Source of the DNA: Tetradesmus obliquus
Lineage: Eukaryota > Chlorophyta > Chlorophyceae > Sphaeropleales > Scenedesmaceae
Assembly (NCBI GenBank): GCA_030272155.1
Contig: CP126192.1
Location: 4,374,501 to 4,438,500 of the forward strand
Length of the DNA stretch: 64,000 nucleotides
Direction of reading: 5' to 3'
Part shown: in pieces, positions 30,449 through 37,698 of the stretch
How positions within the stretch are numbered: the stretch's first letter is position 1
Layout: each line of letters starts with the position of its first letter
Position numbers and translations under genes: made by a program
The notes under the pieces: generated by a model
What the model was told of the DNA's origin: nothing
The model's input: only the letters and a program-made list of their open reading frames with translations
The model's database searches: none

Positions 30449-33400
30449 TTAGTCGCCCTTCTTGCCCTGCCGTGCCAGCTGCTGCAGCAGCTGCTGCGCT
30501 GGCGCAACCTTCTGGTCTTTGCTGCGCCTGTCGTAGGTGCCGCGCTGCATCTCCAGCGAGTGGCCCATATACAGCGCCAGAGCCTCCAGCTCCGCCTCGC
30601 TGCGCCGCTGCATCCTGCACAGGCAGAGGCACACCACGGGATACAGCAATACTGCAGTGGCACAGCATTGAAAGGCTTGCATAGTGCAGCTGGCACCAGC
30701 AACCGCAGAGTAGCACTCATGAATCATGAGTCATGATGCAAGGGCATTACTGTGCAGTGCGGCTGAAAGCAATGTTGTGAGGCGAGCATGGGCGCGCCGG
30801 CGTCAGCAGCAGCAAGCGGAGGTTCACCTGAGGTGTGTGACGATCATGTCGCGCACCAGGTGCGGGTGCGTGGCCTTGCCCGTCAGCCGCAGCGCTGCTG
30901 ATTTGCACAAAAGGTACACAGCGCTCTCGTCAAGCGGCTGCCCAGTGCGCGGCTTGCAGAACAGCATGCTGGTCTTGGGGGCCAGCTCCTGCCGCCAGGT
31001 GCCTATGAAGGCCTCAAGCTCAGGGTAGATGAAGGGCGCGATCAGCAGCGGCGGCCTGTCGCCGTACTGCTTCCCTGTCTTGTAATCGGCTGCTGCATGC
31101 TTGATCACCCAGCTGCCGTCGGCCTGCTGCAGCAGCGTGCGGCCCACCTCCAGCTCACGCAGTGTGCGCTGCCGGTCAGGCACCACCGACAGGATGGCCA
31201 CGATCAGGTAGCGCTGCAGCGAGATTGCCACTTGGCTGCGGGGGCGCGGCTTGCCCGCCTCGGTGAGGCCTAGACGTTGCAACAGCAGCAGCAACAGCAT
31301 CAGCAGGATGAGTTGCACTCCTCCAGGCTCTCAAAAGCGAAGCCATGACAGAAGCCGCCTGGTGATGCTGTGCCTCATTACTCAGACATGAACCACCCCC
31401 ATACAATGTGGTACGCAGTGCAGTTGTGCGGAGGTTGGCGGCTGGAACCACTGAGGACGCTGCCCCCAGCCAGGCTCGTCAGACCAGTGCAGGCTTGCCA
31501 CACAAGTGCAGGCCTACCTGCACACTCTGCCCTGAGCGCTGACACCATCTTCAGGTAGTCAGGCCACTCCAGCCTGCAGACAGCAGGATGTGGGCATGCA
31601 GCAGGACCAATCCACTATCATGCATGACGCAATGCAAGGCCAAAGCATATTCTCAACAATAAAGCAAAGTTCACTTCTGCTTGCTTGAAGTTTGACCATT
31701 GAATATGGCATGCAGCAGGCGAGAGCATGCAGAGCACCAGTGTTGGCAAGCTCCAAAGACTGAGCACATTTGTACCTCCTAAGCCAGCTGCTGTCACCTG
31801 TGCTACATCTTTTGTCAACCGTTCTGTTGCTCACCACTTTTTGCTGTCATCAGCAACGCGCGCTGCACGGCCTGCTGCCTTGCTGGCTGTCCGCTGCATG
31901 GCGTTCAGCTCCTGCACCACTTCCAGGTCATGGTAGGGCCGCAGCTTGGTCTCAGCGCAGGGCTGGAGCACAGCAGCAGCAGTATGCACAGCGGCAGCAA
32001 CAGGGCGCAACAGCGGGTGTTCGTGTGGATGTCAAGGTAATGCCAATCACCTCATTGAGTAGATGCAGGATCAGCAGTCAGAAGCTTGTACACGCTTGCA
32101 GTGCTGGTGGCAGGGGAGGACGATGGTCACACCCAAACAGCTGCAGACAGCATTGCAGGCTGCGGTTGCTGACTATATGCACCACAGCGCGAGGGATGAA
32201 GCACGATGTTGCTGGCAGTCGTGTGGGTTTGCAGGGGGTGCCGCAGCATACCTTCGCCAAGTCGTGGTACAGGAAGCGAGCCACATGCACCACCGCCTTG
32301 ATCGCTATGGTAGCTGTGCTGCTAGCAGTGCCTCTCTCCTGCTGCCGCCAGTGCTGGTAGTCCATGAGCAGGCTGACACCCTCCCTGCCTGGCGATGGCA
32401 CCAGCGTGGCCAGGCGCAGCTGCTCCAGCGGCACGCCGCGCACATTATGAGCAAAGCCTAGCAGCAGCCTGCAACCCACACAGCAGCATGTAGCAGGATG
32501 GAGTTGCCTGTTTGACAGCACCTACATGTAGCTGCAGCTGTAGACTTGCCCACAAGGCATGGCATCTGCGTGTGCTTAAGATCACTCACAGCCAGTTGCA
32601 ACGCACATGTCATTATGTGAACCAGCAACCTCCACATTATGAGGCTGAATCCTGTCAGCAGGTGCTCAGGCACTGCCCTCCCCACCAGCTGAGATGGCTG
32701 ATGTTGGAGCAGCAACTCCTGCAACTGCCAAGAGTCATTCAATTGCAGCAGCAGCCTGCAAGGCTTACTTGACATAGTGCTTTGTCACTGAGCGGTACGT
32801 CACTGGCTGCAGCGGCTCCGACATCTGCCCAAAGAAGCGCGTGGTGCAGAAGCGCTCCAGTGCAGCCAGCTCAGCCTGCAGGCTCGAGGGCATATGCGCC
32901 TCCTGCACAGGTGGTGATGCCAGGCAGACGCAGGGCACCCAACGATGAGCCCAGCAGCTGGTGCAGCCCACACGTGACATGCGCGTGCATTGAGCATTGC
33001 TTGTAAAAGGCGGCATGATTGGCCAGAGAGGACAGCCATAAGTGCTTGCAGGACACCATACTAGGAGCCCTAGACTCCCCACAGCAATTCCAAACAAGTA
33101 ACAAGTGTCACCTGCAAGCTGTAAGGCTCCAGACTTTGCAGTGGGCTGCTCCTGACACGTGTCTTCTGTATGCTGCTGAGCGGTTGCTGATATGCGGGCA
33201 TGCGCCGCTGCATGATGTCAATCAACTCTTGCTGTGCGGTCGGTTGCTGCTGTGCCTGCTGCCCCTGCCGCTGCAGCTGCTGCCTGAGGATGAACGCGAG
33301 CTTGGCAGGCACATCCACCAGCTCCAGCTCTTCCTGCACGCATCACATGAGCGCAAATGTCAGTTGTTTGCAGATGCCAGTTGATCATTCCAGCAACGGT

Positions 33401-33986
33401 GGAAACCCACTAGTGCTTCTGCGGGGATTGGGATTGTTGGCAGCACTCACTTCAGATGAGCCGAGCTTGCTTGGAAAGAGGGACACCTCTTACTACGCAG
33501 TGGTGTTGATGAAGCAGTGCTGCACAGGGAGGCTGTTGAAAAGCCTGTCTGCTGTGATAACTGTGCTTGCTGCCAACAGAATTCAGAGCACACACACCTG
33601 TGACATGGCAGCCACATCGCCAGCAGTGTTGTACAGGTTGGCTCGCAGTCGCTGCACCTGCAGTGGTTCATGAGCATGTCAAGCTGAAAGCCCATGCAGG
33701 AAGTATAGCGTTAGAACACCATGTTTTCACTCACCAGTTGTACTTCTGCAGGACCAGGCGCGCGCCCTGCCTTCGCAAGCGCTGCTGCAACTGCTGCTTC
33801 TACATCTGTATCAGGCTCGATACACACAGTCACCCCTTCAGTGCCGCTGGTGCTGAACTGATTTAAGCTATGCGTTCTTGCTGGCAGGCACGGCACGTGG
33901 TGAATGCTGGACAGCTGCCCAAGGATCTGACTTGAGGCATGCACCCACTGCCTGCTGACTCTCAGGTGTCTGAAGACAGCCTGCAT
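30449..33986 (-). CDS. Tyrosine recombinase (phage-integrase fold), copy A, organelle-targeting-like N-terminus
   Basis: Predicted site-specific DNA recombinase. Exons: 33986-33735, 33657-33598, 33333-33112, 32902-32769, 32468-32252, 31962-31835, 31573-31518, 31269-30828, 30614-30449; 558 residues. The first ~47 residues (MQAVFRHLRVSRQWVHASSQ...) are basic and hydroxylated with no acid, like a mitochondrial or plastid presequence. The middle holds a helical region that may be the core-binding domain (RGVPLEQLRLATLVPSPGRE, LLMDYQHWRQQ). The catalytic domain has a candidate box I Arg (VPDRQRTLRELEVG), a beta-hairpin Lys (DYKTGKQYGDR), HxxR in HPHLVRDMIVTHLR, and GHS plus the Tyr nucleophile in MGHSLEMQRGTYDRRS. 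Nothing in the catalytic set looks lost. Host role is unknown. It may be a domesticated Crypton-like recombinase; no terminal repeats or partner element genes were seen. Confidence 0.85.
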
Positions 33987-34243
33987 TGCGGTGGCCCCCC
34001 TGGGGGGTATAGACCCGTGACAGCGTAACTATAGGTATCAGCACTACATTTATTTAGATTAGCGCTGTTTTGGCTGGGGTGGGATAGAGCTTGCTGCGTG
34101 GAGCTCAGCCCTGCACTCTACTGGTACTGGCAGTTGCTCTCGAGTCTACTTGCATGCAACAACACAGTAGAACAGTAACTCGAGTAAATTTATGATCAAA
34201 GAGTCTGCGTAGTCGAGGCGCCCATGCCTAGGCGGTCGATGAA

Positions 34244-34300
34244 CCTTCAAGGCCGTTTGAAGGCCCAATGGGCGTATGGAAGACAGACGGCCGTTTGAAG
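34244..34300. repeat. Palindrome with direct repeat upstream of recombinase A
   Basis: CCTTCAA (34244-34250) and TTGAAGG (34257-34263) form an inverted pair. GGCCGTTTGAAG begins at 34251 (as GGCCGTTTGAAGG) and recurs at 34289-34300. The block lies about 260-315 bases upstream of the copy A start codon. Confidence 0.65.
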
Positions 34301-34326
34301 CTCAAACCACAAAATCACAGTTTCCC

Positions 34327-34331
34327 TTACA
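34327..34331 (-). terminator. Candidate TGTAA poly(A) signal of recombinase B
   Basis: TTACA on plus reads TGTAA on minus, about 270 bases beyond the copy B stop. Confidence 0.35.
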
Positions 34332-34602
34332 AGAGTCGACTTTGTTCTGAAAGGTTCCAGATCAAAACGTCGACAGCATGAACTGGGTGCAGCAAAGGTT
34401 GCTGCCAGCGCAGCGTATGCAAGTGCACTCTATGCGTACTATCCAGTCCAGCAGGCTGATCATGACCACCACAGGACCCCACCAACCTCGTCCGATCCTT
34501 CATGGAACTCAGTGCAACCGTGAATGAGTAGTCCCCTGCCTGCACCGCACAACGTAAGCTTGACTGTGCTGGCTAGCACATGCCATCTACAAGGCACCCT
34601 TG

Positions 34603-37600
34603 TCACAGATCACCGGCAAGCTCAAGCATCAGATCCACGGCTGGCTGCACCTTCTGCGCCTTAGTGCGCCTGTCGTATGTGCCTCGCTGCTCCTTCACAC
34701 TGTGGCCCATCAGCAGCGCAAGCGACTCCATGTCCTGCTCGCTAGCGCCCGACTCCCTGCAGTGCAGCACAGCGCAGTAGCACCAGGCGGCACGGGGCGT
34801 GTACACAACGAAGTGTGCCGCACACGCATTTAAATTCACATTTGGATGCACATTATGCCACCAACAAGCACATGACGCGCCAAGCTGAAGCCTGCATCCC
34901 TGATGCTGTGCATCAGGCTCACCTGAGGTGTGTGACGATCATATCGCGCACCAGGTGCGGATGCGTGGCCTTGCCCGTCAGCCGCAGCGCCGCCTTCTTG
35001 AATACATCAGTCACTGCGTCGACGTCTAGTGCCTCTCCGCTGCGCGGCTTGCAGAACAGCATGCTGGTCTTGGGGGCCAGCTCCTGCCGCCAGGTGCCTA
35101 TGAAGGCCTCAAGCTCAGGGTAGATGAAGGGCGCGATCAGCAGCGGCGGCCTGTCACCATACTTCTTCCCTGTCTTGTAGTCGGCTGCTGCATGCTTGAT
35201 CACCCAGCTGCCGTCGGCCTGCTGCAGCAGCGTGCGGCCCACCTCCAGCTCGCGCAGCGTGCGCTGCCGGTCAGGCACCACCGACAGGATGGCCACAATC
35301 AGGTAGCGCTGCAGCGAGCAGGCCACTTCGCGACGCACGCGCGGCTGGCCAGTAGCAGTCAGCCCTGCAGTTCAGCGGCATCGCTGCAATTGGCATGTTG
35401 TCCATAGCCCGTGTGTGTGTGCTGCTAACCCACTCATGCTCTGGCATGCACACACGAGCGACACATGCAATTGTGTAAACCAGGCACGCCCACATGCGGG
35501 CGCCTTGCACTTTGCTCTGTCTGTTATCGCACCTGCACACTCTGCACGAAGCGCCTGCACAAAGCTGGTGAACTCGTCCCACTGCAGCCACTTCTTGGAC
35601 TCGTCTGCTACCAGAGGAGCGTGTGCTGCTGCTTTGTGCGCATTGCGCAGCATCAGTGCCAGCTCCTGCATCACACCCAAGTCTCTGTACGGTGGCTTGG
35701 CCGAGGGCTGCAGCACACGGGGCGTGAAGTTTTAATACGGAGGAATGCAGGAGAGTGCATTGTTGATCAGGGATGTGTCAAGGCAACCAGTTGCTGGCAT
35801 GGCTTGTTCAGCGTGCTGTCATCCGCAGGAGCTGCATGAGGCTGCTGTTTTGGCTGCCTTGAGAGTGCAGCAACTTGCAATGGCATAGTACCTGAAGCAG
35901 TGCAATGCGCCACTCACACTCGACTGCTCGTGGTACAGGAGGCGTGCTGCCACGATGGTTGCCTTAATCGGCAGCAAGTGGCTGCGTGCTGTGACACCCT
36001 TCTGCTGCCGCCAGTGCTGGTAGTCCATGAGCAGGCTGACGCCCTCCCTGCCTGGCGATGGCACCAGCGTGGCCAGGCGCAGCTGCTCCAGCGGCACGCC
36101 GCGCTCAGTGTGAGCCCAGCCCAGCATCCTCCTGCAAGTTCAGGCGGAGGATGGACGTTGGTGGTGGCGTGGCATGCAGCACATATCAGACAAGCACGAA
36201 AATGACTATGAAGTAGCTGCTCCTGGCCTCTCTACACAACTGGAATCACACCACTGAATCTGCATCGCTGTGCTTGCCACAGCCATGGGCATAGAGCCAG
36301 CTGCTGCTGGTGCTGGAGTCATCCGCGCCAGACAATACTGGTAACCCTGCTTACCACAGCTCCTCTCTGTAGACGTTGAAGGACACCGGCCGCAAGGGCT
36401 CCACGCGCTGCCCGTAGAAGGTGCCGCAGCAGAACCGCTCTAGCTGGCTGAGCTCCTCCCGCAGCGCTGCCGACAGCTGCTCGTCCTGCAAGGGCAGGTG
36501 TGTCATGTGAGTTTCAGGAGCCAGCCCAGTACCACAAACAGCACCTACTTTGTATCGTGGTACTCTATGTGCAGACTGGAAACACTCCGGGAACACTGTT
36601 GTAGCCGCTAACGCCACGCGACCCATGTCAACAAGCGGATGAACGGACTGCTGTCCGTAGTTGCAGCCACAAGATGCCTGAGCATTCACAGCTTCCCGCA
36701 AGTTGCAGCAAATGTTCAAGCCCCAGCAGCTGTTGAACCAATTGCAAGGGCCGCACCTTCAATGCATATGGCTTGACCGCTTTCTTGCTTGTGACCTGCA
36801 CGCGCGTACTGCCAGCGCTGTTTGTGCCCACAAAGTTGCGCGGCATGCGCCGCTGCATGATGTCTGGATGCAGCTCCTGCCCAGCAGCTGATGTCGTGGC
36901 ATCGACCTCGCCTGTTGCATCGCCCTGCTGCAGCTCAACAGCGGCACTGCCTGCTGCAGTAGTGGCTGCCAGCTCGCTGCTCGCCCTGTCCTCCAAGCTG
37001 TCTGCTGCTGCAGCTGAAGCAGCAGCAGCTGCTGCGCTGTCGGCCGCAACCATCGCCTTGACCATGGCCCAGACCCTGACAGGTATTTGCATCTGCTGCA
37101 GCTCCTCCTGCACAACATCATTGGAGCATGCTGAGGTGGCAAGCTTGCAGCAATGAAACATGTGCTGGTTCTTATTGATACGATAGTGCATTCATGCTGT
37201 ACACATGCCTTCCAAGTCCAACACGATAAGAAACCCCATGCAACACGCAGCAGGCGCACGACAAGCACCAACACTGACGTGTTGATGACAGCAGGCACAC
37301 GTACCTTTGACATCTGAGCAACATCGCCTGCAGTGCTGTACCAGTTGCTCCGTAACTGTTCACTCTGCAAACACCAAGCAGACAACGCCACAAGTGAAAC
37401 TGTATCAAGCAGCACGCGTCGTCAGCATGCACCAATTGTTGCAGACACAACCACTTTGATTTGCAGCACCCACCAGGTGCTCTGCATTCTTGAGGGAGAG
37501 GCCTGCAGCATCTGCAGCTGCTTCCAAGGCAGTGTTGATGTCTGTTTCTGGGGCTACAGCAACGACATGCTTGCCAGAAGCTTTAGTGCTGACTCGCCTT

Positions 37601-37698
37601 GCTGACCGCTGCTGCAACAACAGCACGCCATGCTGCAGCAGGGCGACCTGCTGTGCATATATGCTGTGCAGCCTTGGGCAGCAGCTACGAAGCAGCAT
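34603..37698 (-). CDS. Tyrosine recombinase (phage-integrase fold), copy B, organelle-targeting-like N-terminus
   Basis: Tandem paralogue of copy A in the same orientation. Exons: 37698-37474, 37364-37305, 37107-36757, 36485-36355, 36131-35918, 35707-35533, 35364-34923, 34756-34603; 583 residues, all phases consistent. The start at 37698 is the first ATG in a frame open further upstream. The N-terminus (MLLRSCCPRLHSIYAQQ...RSARRVSTKAS) is basic and acid-free for about 50 residues. Exon 3 carries a long Ala/Ser-rich insert absent from copy A. The catalytic set is complete: VPDRQRTLRELEVG, DYKTGKKYGDR, HPHLVRDMIVTHLR and MGHSVKEQRGTYDRRT. The copy A intron between KKW and LEW is absent here (KKWLQW is read in one exon). 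The catalytic exon is the same length (442 nt) as in copy A and almost identical to it. Confidence 0.85.

Follow-up and report, generated by a model that had tools for sequence, protein, structure and literature searches.

Gene models at the locus

Within a window of 64,000 nucleotides from the green alga Tetradesmus obliquus (assembly GCA_030272155.1, contig CP126192.1, positions 4,374,501 to 4,438,500 of the forward strand) two related genes, here designated gene A and gene B, lie head to tail on the minus strand and occupy positions 30449-37698. The assembly comprises 104.66 Mb in 17 contigs, the one carrying the pair being longer than 4.4 Mb. A preliminary description of the window had proposed two tandem spliced tyrosine recombinases with phase-consistent introns at this place. 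Upon rebuilding the models base by base its outer coordinates proved exact: all 15 introns of the two genes have GT-AG borders, both frames read through to a single terminal stop, and the exon phases match between the genes (Table 1). Core splice junctions of the pair (for example ECAG|LT, THLR| and KKW|L) are, as judged by eye, crossed gap-free by homologous proteins. The observation of gene A and gene B as spliced nuclear genes is confirmed at the level of models predicted from sequence.

Catalytic residues and fold

Both genes carry the complete catalytic set R-K-H-R-H-Y ascribed to them beforehand, namely R389, K420, H493, R496, H522 and Y531 in gene A and R418, K449, H522, R525, H551 and Y560 in gene B. 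In an alignment of 220 rows (218 database proteins plus the pair, at least six rows being later grouped with cyanobacterial sequences) each of the six gene B positions is kept in 217 to 220 rows, and the first histidine of the HxxR motif is present in all 220. The comparison with the Phage_integrase profile proposed in the preliminary description gave a divided result. PF00589 matches gene B with an E value of 4.6e-4, which is under the curated cut-off, and 46 of the 78 family members scanned at E 0.01 or better; the Pfam scan of the gene A protein returned no match. Since homologues match PF00589, the pair can be assigned to the tyrosine recombinases though Pfam sees little in the pair itself. 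A search of PDB sequences yielded chance matches only, to designed and unrelated proteins. The recombinase fold, in turn, is borne out by the AlphaFold model of a 51%-identical homologue, which displays the two-domain Cre/Xer architecture of core-binding and catalytic domain and whose best-matching solved structures include XerA and XerH. As far as computation of fold and active site can tell, gene A and gene B are intact-looking tyrosine recombinases.

Exon 2 of both genes encodes part of a conserved N-terminal helical motif which, in gene B, matches helices located between residues 3 and 47 in model P0003 of a homologue. Another family member, P0060, shows matches to the SAM-domain entries PF07647 and PF00536, which suggests that this motif of the family is SAM-like.

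Copy number in the genome

Searching the Tetradesmus genome with the gene B protein gave 13 matches, all of which fall within gene A and gene B (34 of 34 first-look candidates scored). The one flank of the pair that was searched, 301 bases long, is single copy in the genome, and no terminal repeats occur among the repeats listed around the pair, these being paralogous exons and trinucleotide runs. Because only two copies were found, with no listed terminal repeats and a single-copy flank, a recent transposon insertion is rejected, and the earlier view of the genes as host-like rather than freshly inserted stands for the 104.66 Mb. A PF00589 profile search of the same genome missed the pair and found five other loci of a different kind. 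The sole one of these that was read, L002, contains an open reading frame (ORF) of 352 residues with HSLRRGGATWAV, which looks DIRS-like.

Distribution and phylogeny of the family

Relatives were collected by three protein searches (best 120 of 257, 374 and 134 matches, about a quarter of them named). Among the matches listed, named members come from green algae, Balamuthia, Acanthamoeba, diatoms and the oomycetes Aphanomyces, Achlya, Thraustotheca and Saprolegnia, so that a restriction to green algae is unsupported. Land plants, animals, fungi and red algae are missing from the names among these matches, which is no proof of absence. Some 240 eukaryotic members were collected, most of the named ones being annotated as hypothetical. 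Four diatom members bear CAMPEP names (P0131, P0156, P0203 and P0293) and stem from transcriptome collections; hence, some family members are transcribed. Title-level listings of open-licence literature showed no nuclear-encoded organelle recombinase of this family. In the records P0037 and P0127 the recombinase is annotated inside a longer protein (saccharopine dehydrogenase and ankyrin/palmitoyltransferase, respectively); both are probably gene-model fusions.

The main tree comprises 329 of 332 sequences, P0098, P0268 and P0270 being left out as too gappy; the prokaryotic members of all trees are cyanobacterial recombinases exclusively. The eukaryotic sequences form one clade of 242 members (support 0.98) which contains every one of the 40 eukaryotic rows with a name that were checked, but not a single one of the 13 named cyanobacterial rows. 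In an earlier, smaller tree (100 sequences, with the root placed on other cyanobacterial sequences) the eukaryotic clade had received 0.851 and the node uniting it with the near-cyanobacterial sequences 1.0. Groups within the main tree track organism groups (green 0.908, diatom-like 0.983, amoebae 0.987), the oomycete node being weakly supported (0.187). Gene A and gene B fall into a Sphaeropleales clade with support 1.0. Two further clades, prasinophyte-like paralogues with 26 and 11 members, presumably represent Mamiellales, no row being so named.

With respect to the history of the pair, exons 5 and 7 of gene B differ from their gene A counterparts by a synonymous divergence (dS) of 0.41 and 0.26, compared with 1.3 elsewhere, which has the appearance of a gene-conversion signature. 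The repeat shared by the two exons 5 extends over 157 nucleotides at 89% identity, with codon windows 0.97 and 0.85 identical. In a tree of the converted exons gene A joins gene B (support 1.0), whereas in a tree of the other exons gene B groups with other Sphaeropleales (ultrafast bootstrap 76); the two trees disagree on the age of the duplication. Between gene A and gene B the catalytic exons and some of the core-binding ones were apparently homogenised, while the leaders diverged.

Cyanobacterial relatives and a candidate site

Two short conserved patterns were run against 84,980 prokaryotic species genomes and hit 41 stretches. Three of these were confirmed, all in bins titled cyanobacteria; the stretch L019 is set among ORFs which look bacterial by eye. 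When a cyanobacterial protein served as the query, every named prokaryote among the matches listed was likewise cyanobacterial. Matches to the family were found in 26 plasmid records, 25 of which are typed non-mobilizable, and all 20 listed are cyanobacterial. Identity to these relatives reaches 38.8% over 79% of the Balamuthia member. Geminocystis NIES-3709 harbours the family gene on five plasmids, and an annotated ParA is found nearby in two of the 15 plasmid stretches viewed. This distribution fits a recombinase with a putative role in plasmid maintenance. At E 1e-10 the family is present in 17 of 244 cyanobacterial genomes; many of these matches cover the profile only partially, within frames of some 1200 residues, and may be other integrases. 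A viral origin was rejected, as none of 24 pattern-matched stretches from IMG/VR was confirmed and phage records gave no match; PHROGs returned weak matches to the general integrase family alone.

Judged from alignments and trees, the eukaryotic family is of shared ancestry with cyanobacterial, partly plasmid-borne, recombinases, and the transfer may have gone from cyanobacteria to eukaryotes. The cyanobacterial clade nearest to the eukaryotes has a support of only 0.756, however, and plastid-less amoebae carry the gene, so that both this direction and an arrival along with the plastid are tentative.

On three Nostocales plasmids (L026, L028 and L039) a block GTCATAAATA-N11-TATTTATGAC has its start 321-329 bases ahead of the recombinase gene and hardly varies, although the flanking sequence differs. 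Read as arms of 12-13 bases around a spacer of 5-7 bases, it resembles a tyrosine recombinase site; it could be a recombination site or, equally, an operator. The block recurs on a fourth plasmid, Nostoc commune HK-02 plasmid4 (L050, MOBP), with no annotated recombinase within 4 kb and no notable tblastn match (best E 0.13). Five matches on enterobacterial plasmids (E 0.1-0.4) look like chance, and none of the 244 cyanobacterial genomes contains the block with up to three mismatches allowed. Three of the other 11 plasmid genes are without such an upstream inverted repeat and eight have different ones, some of them terminator-like by eye, as assessed against a simple 2-mer shuffle as control.

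N-terminal leaders

In agreement with the preliminary description both proteins start with a basic, acid-free stretch, residues 1-49 of gene A and 1-50 of gene B being devoid of aspartate and glutamate (D/E) and the first acidic residue following at position 50 and 51, respectively. The organelle targeting proposed on this ground is supported at family level, chiefly by the diatom-like clade, which includes all ten named diatoms checked. Within it, a strongly hydrophobic leader is present in 39 of 63 non-redundant members, and in 22 of the 63 this leader is followed by a small residue and F (300 shuffles: mean 3.7, maximum 9). Such leaders resemble the ASAFAP-type bipartite plastid signal as outlined in passages of PMC4329603. 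A hydrophobic leader is found in one of 54 other green and in none of 21 near-cyanobacterial sequences, the hydrophobic-plus-F type in 5 of 14 members of a small leftover eukaryotic group (shuffle mean 0.8, maximum 5). An extension of at least 35 residues is present in 24 of the 54 other green members; in the extensions of these 24, D/E make up 5.7%, as opposed to 12.7% of the remaining protein, and R is three times as frequent as K. In cyanobacterial leaders acidic residues are not scarce, the first 30 residues holding 3.5 D/E on average. Excerpts of PMC4986872 describe the mitochondrial -3R cleavage motif RX(F/Y/L)|(A/S/T)(S/T) as common and not obligatory, with -2R and no-R classes beside it. 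A looser motif occurs in 19 of the 54 other green leaders (shuffle mean 8.6, maximum 18) and in 7 of 11 in the first prasinophyte-like paralogue group (mean 2.6, maximum 7). The leaders of the two paralogue clades differ in style, one being S/T- and R-rich; that they serve separate organelles is a guess. Within the pair, the gene A leader has a helical moment of 0.531 over its first 35 residues (shuffle p 0.046).

A number of observations weigh against import, in particular of the pair. The helical moment of the gene B leader does not exceed that of shuffles (p 0.89), so that an amphipathic helix, above shuffles in gene A only, is dismissed as a trait of both leaders. The -3R motif is absent from gene A (NQFST) and gene B (RRVST). 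Six of 54 other green leaders contain it, where shuffles average 2.44 and 37 of 1000 attain this count. It is also present in 2 of 63 diatom-like leaders (2.08 on average in shuffles) and in 1 of 21 near-cyanobacterial ones, and is missing from the two prasinophyte-like paralogue groups (0 of 11 and 0 of 5). Weak in the family and absent from the pair, the motif was discarded as proof of targeting. The looser motif is found in none of five leaders of the second paralogue group, none of four from oomycetes and 5 of 63 diatom-like ones (shuffle mean 4.9). Both this motif and the diatom leader rule were devised after the leaders had been viewed, which flatters the significance of these tests. In only 12 of the 24 long green leaders do the first 40 residues contain no more than one D/E; among all 54 green leaders 18 are short and 12, gene A included, are without an anchor. 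Two long extensions outside the greens contain 18% D/E, and the gene models of the Monoraphidium, Raphidocelis and Chromochloris members have no leader. Hence, we infer organelle targeting for the family, and weakly for the pair, for which mitochondrial import is somewhat more likely than plastid import.

Table 1. Positions of the genes, their parts and other integrase loci. Positions refer to the window unless a contig (C) is given.
Feature	Position	Strand	Remarks
Gene A, spliced tyrosine recombinase	30449..33986	-	9 exons, 558 residues
Gene A exons 1-5	33735-33986, 33598-33657, 33112-33333, 32769-32902, 32252-32468	-	
Gene A exons 6-9	31835-31962, 31518-31573, 30828-31269, 30449-30614	-	
Gene B, spliced tyrosine recombinase	34603..37698	-	8 exons, 583 residues
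Gene B exons 1-4	37474-37698, 37305-37364, 36757-37107, 36355-36485	-	
Gene B exons 5-8	35918-36131, 35533-35707, 34923-35364, 34603-34756	-	
Extra intron	31574..31834	-	in gene A only, gene B without; by model comparison
Gene A catalytic exon	30828..31269	-	R389 31172-31174, K420 31079-31081, H493 30860-30862, R496 30851-30853; conserved alignment positions
Gene A last exon	30449..30614	-	H522 30560-30562, nucleophile Y531 30533-30535
Gene B catalytic exon	34923..35364	-	putative conversion tract with gene A; conserved alignment positions
Gene B catalytic codons	R418 35267-35269, K449 35174-35176, H522 34955-34957, R525 34946-34948	-	
Gene B last exon	34603..34756	-	H551 34702-34704, nucleophile Y560 34675-34677
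Gene A exon 5	32252..32468	-	partly near-identical to gene B exon 5 (core-binding domain)
Gene B exon 5	35918..36131	-	putative conversion-tract partner of gene A exon 5
Gene A exon 2	33598..33657	-	part of conserved N-terminal helical (SAM-like) motif L..NLYNTAGDVA.MS; recurs in homologues
Gene B exon 2	37305..37364	-	part of same motif (LRSNWYSTAGDVAQMS); recurs in homologues
Gene A residues 1-50	33837..33986	-	basic leader, first acidic residue at 50
Gene B residues 1-50	37549..37698	-	basic leader without D/E, contains RRVST
Other Phage_integrase loci L001-L005	C1:3759817, C3:8122070, C3:4616292, C3:2778510, C17:2831792		PF00589 profile

Interpretation and alternatives

We consider it fairly likely that the pair represents an old host recombinase of cyanobacterial-plasmid type which probably enters an organelle and acts on the DNA there. 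Recombinases of the Cre/Xer type generally act as tetramers, with attack by a tyrosine and a Holliday junction as intermediate. Following this scheme, the protein would be imported and would work on organelle DNA there: four protomers would bind two short inverted-repeat sites, the tyrosine would attack the DNA backbone assisted by R, K, H, R and H, and strand exchange through the Holliday junction would resolve two circles or invert a segment. The enzymes of the pair may in this manner resolve or rearrange organelle DNA; the target site and multimer resolution as their task are conjecture. A wider proposal, possible in our view and put forward tentatively, is that several eukaryotic supergroups possess a nuclear-encoded Cre/Xer analogue derived from a cyanobacterial plasmid, which would operate in plastids of diatoms and in mitochondria (or in both, by way of separate paralogues) of green algae, oomycetes and amoebae, resolving multimers or rearranging DNA at dif-like sites.

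The principal competitors share this ancestry and place the enzyme elsewhere. Assuming a plastid ancestor that contained a cyanobacterial plasmid, the pair would be a plastid enzyme in Tetradesmus which became mitochondrial secondarily in lineages without plastids. The cyanobacterial relatives, the plastid-type leaders of the diatom-like clade and the two divergent prasinophyte-like paralogue clades, one of them with S/T- and R-rich leaders, are in line with this assumption; yet the leaders of gene A and gene B show no clear transit-peptide character by eye, plastid-less Amoebozoa carry the gene, and the poor support of the nearest cyanobacterial clade does not speak for it, so that we regard a plastid location as rather unlikely. 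Alternatively, the domesticated recombinase might work in the nucleus, for instance on circles of ribosomal DNA or in programmed rearrangements, the basic N-terminus being a disordered or nuclear-import tail. The strict mitochondrial motif missing from both leaders, the gene B leader being no more amphipathic than shuffles and the leaderless gene models of some members would agree with such a role, against which stand the diatom-like plastid-type leaders, whose number is above the shuffle maximum, the acid-poor extensions of 24 green members with their preference for R over K, and oomycete leaders such as MWRLARSTATGISRQWAIPRRFLSE that look mitochondrial by eye, yet none of four matches the loose motif. 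We deem a nuclear role unlikely.

A different ancestry was implied by the preliminary description, which had named a domesticated Crypton-like origin as the main alternative. According to passages of PMC3212892, oomycetes and a diatom are reported to contain Cryptons, and domestication has taken place more than once; domesticated DUF3504 genes lack most of the catalytic set, which is fully kept here. No DUF3504 occurs among the Pfam matches of the pair or of 78 family members, a comparison made at profile level, without alignment to a Crypton sequence. As the closest prokaryotic relatives found are enzymes of cyanobacteria, often plasmid-borne and up to 38.8% identical, a Crypton-like origin is unsupported; with only two copies found and no terminal repeats seen, descent from a Crypton or another eukaryotic tyrosine-recombinase transposon is very improbable. 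Hardly credible at all is a recently inactivated, decaying pair without function, as the six catalytic residues and all splice sites are intact in both genes and the nonsynonymous divergence (dN 0.558) is lower than the dS of 1.3 outside the conversion tracts, a dS near saturation.

Comparison with known systems

The resolution of organelle genome multimers is mostly discussed in terms of homologous recombination. What emerges here is a broadly spread eukaryotic recombinase family of about 240 members with an intact catalytic set. If it is a dedicated organelle recombinase, the question of multimer resolution becomes directly testable in algae and diatoms; cyanobacterial plasmid genes would then have been taken into eukaryotic service, and organelle-active recombinases might serve as tools.

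Eukaryotes are described as rarely containing site-specific recombinases (excerpts of PMC3466309). Organelle-linked tyrosine recombinases are also represented by TyrC of the Heterosigma akashiwo chloroplast and by mitochondrial recombinases of Prototheca and Chaetosphaeridium. Passages of PMC2410131 raise multimer monomerisation as a possibility and invoke lateral transfer; by this description these enzymes, TyrC having 298-318 residues, are organelle-encoded, whereas gene A and gene B are nuclear and spliced. Pf-Int of Plasmodium and other Apicomplexa is likewise a tyrosine recombinase from protists and may carry an apicoplast signal, but according to the description in parts of PMC3466309 the HxxR motif of the Apicomplexa reported there starts with Y, a position that is H in all rows aligned here. 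Cryptons and DUF3504 genes, as described in part in PMC3212892, are also eukaryotic tyrosine recombinases with domestication events; the present family differs from them by the lack of a DUF3504 match and by its nearest relatives.

To Cre of phage P1 the identity in structural alignments amounts to about 14-16%. XerC, XerD and XerA share the fold and the catalytic set with the present family and give weak profile matches to it. Five eukaryotic members and one cyanobacterial member of the family, the window genes not among them, scored 17-35 bits against cut-offs of 220-371 and thus lie below the NCBIfam equivalog threshold; the family differs from Xer recombinases also in being eukaryotic and nuclear-encoded with a long N-terminal extension. 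The closest resemblance is to cyanobacterial integrases, many of them on plasmids (Nostoc HK-01 plasmid6, BBD63617; Aulosira; Nostoc C057) and others on contigs of Microcoleus and Coleofasciculus. These form the nearest clade to the eukaryotic family in the tree and possess the residues R, K, R, H and Y in each of 19 rows and the H of HxxR in 17 of these, but they have a different N-terminal region, leaders which are not acid-poor, and no introns.

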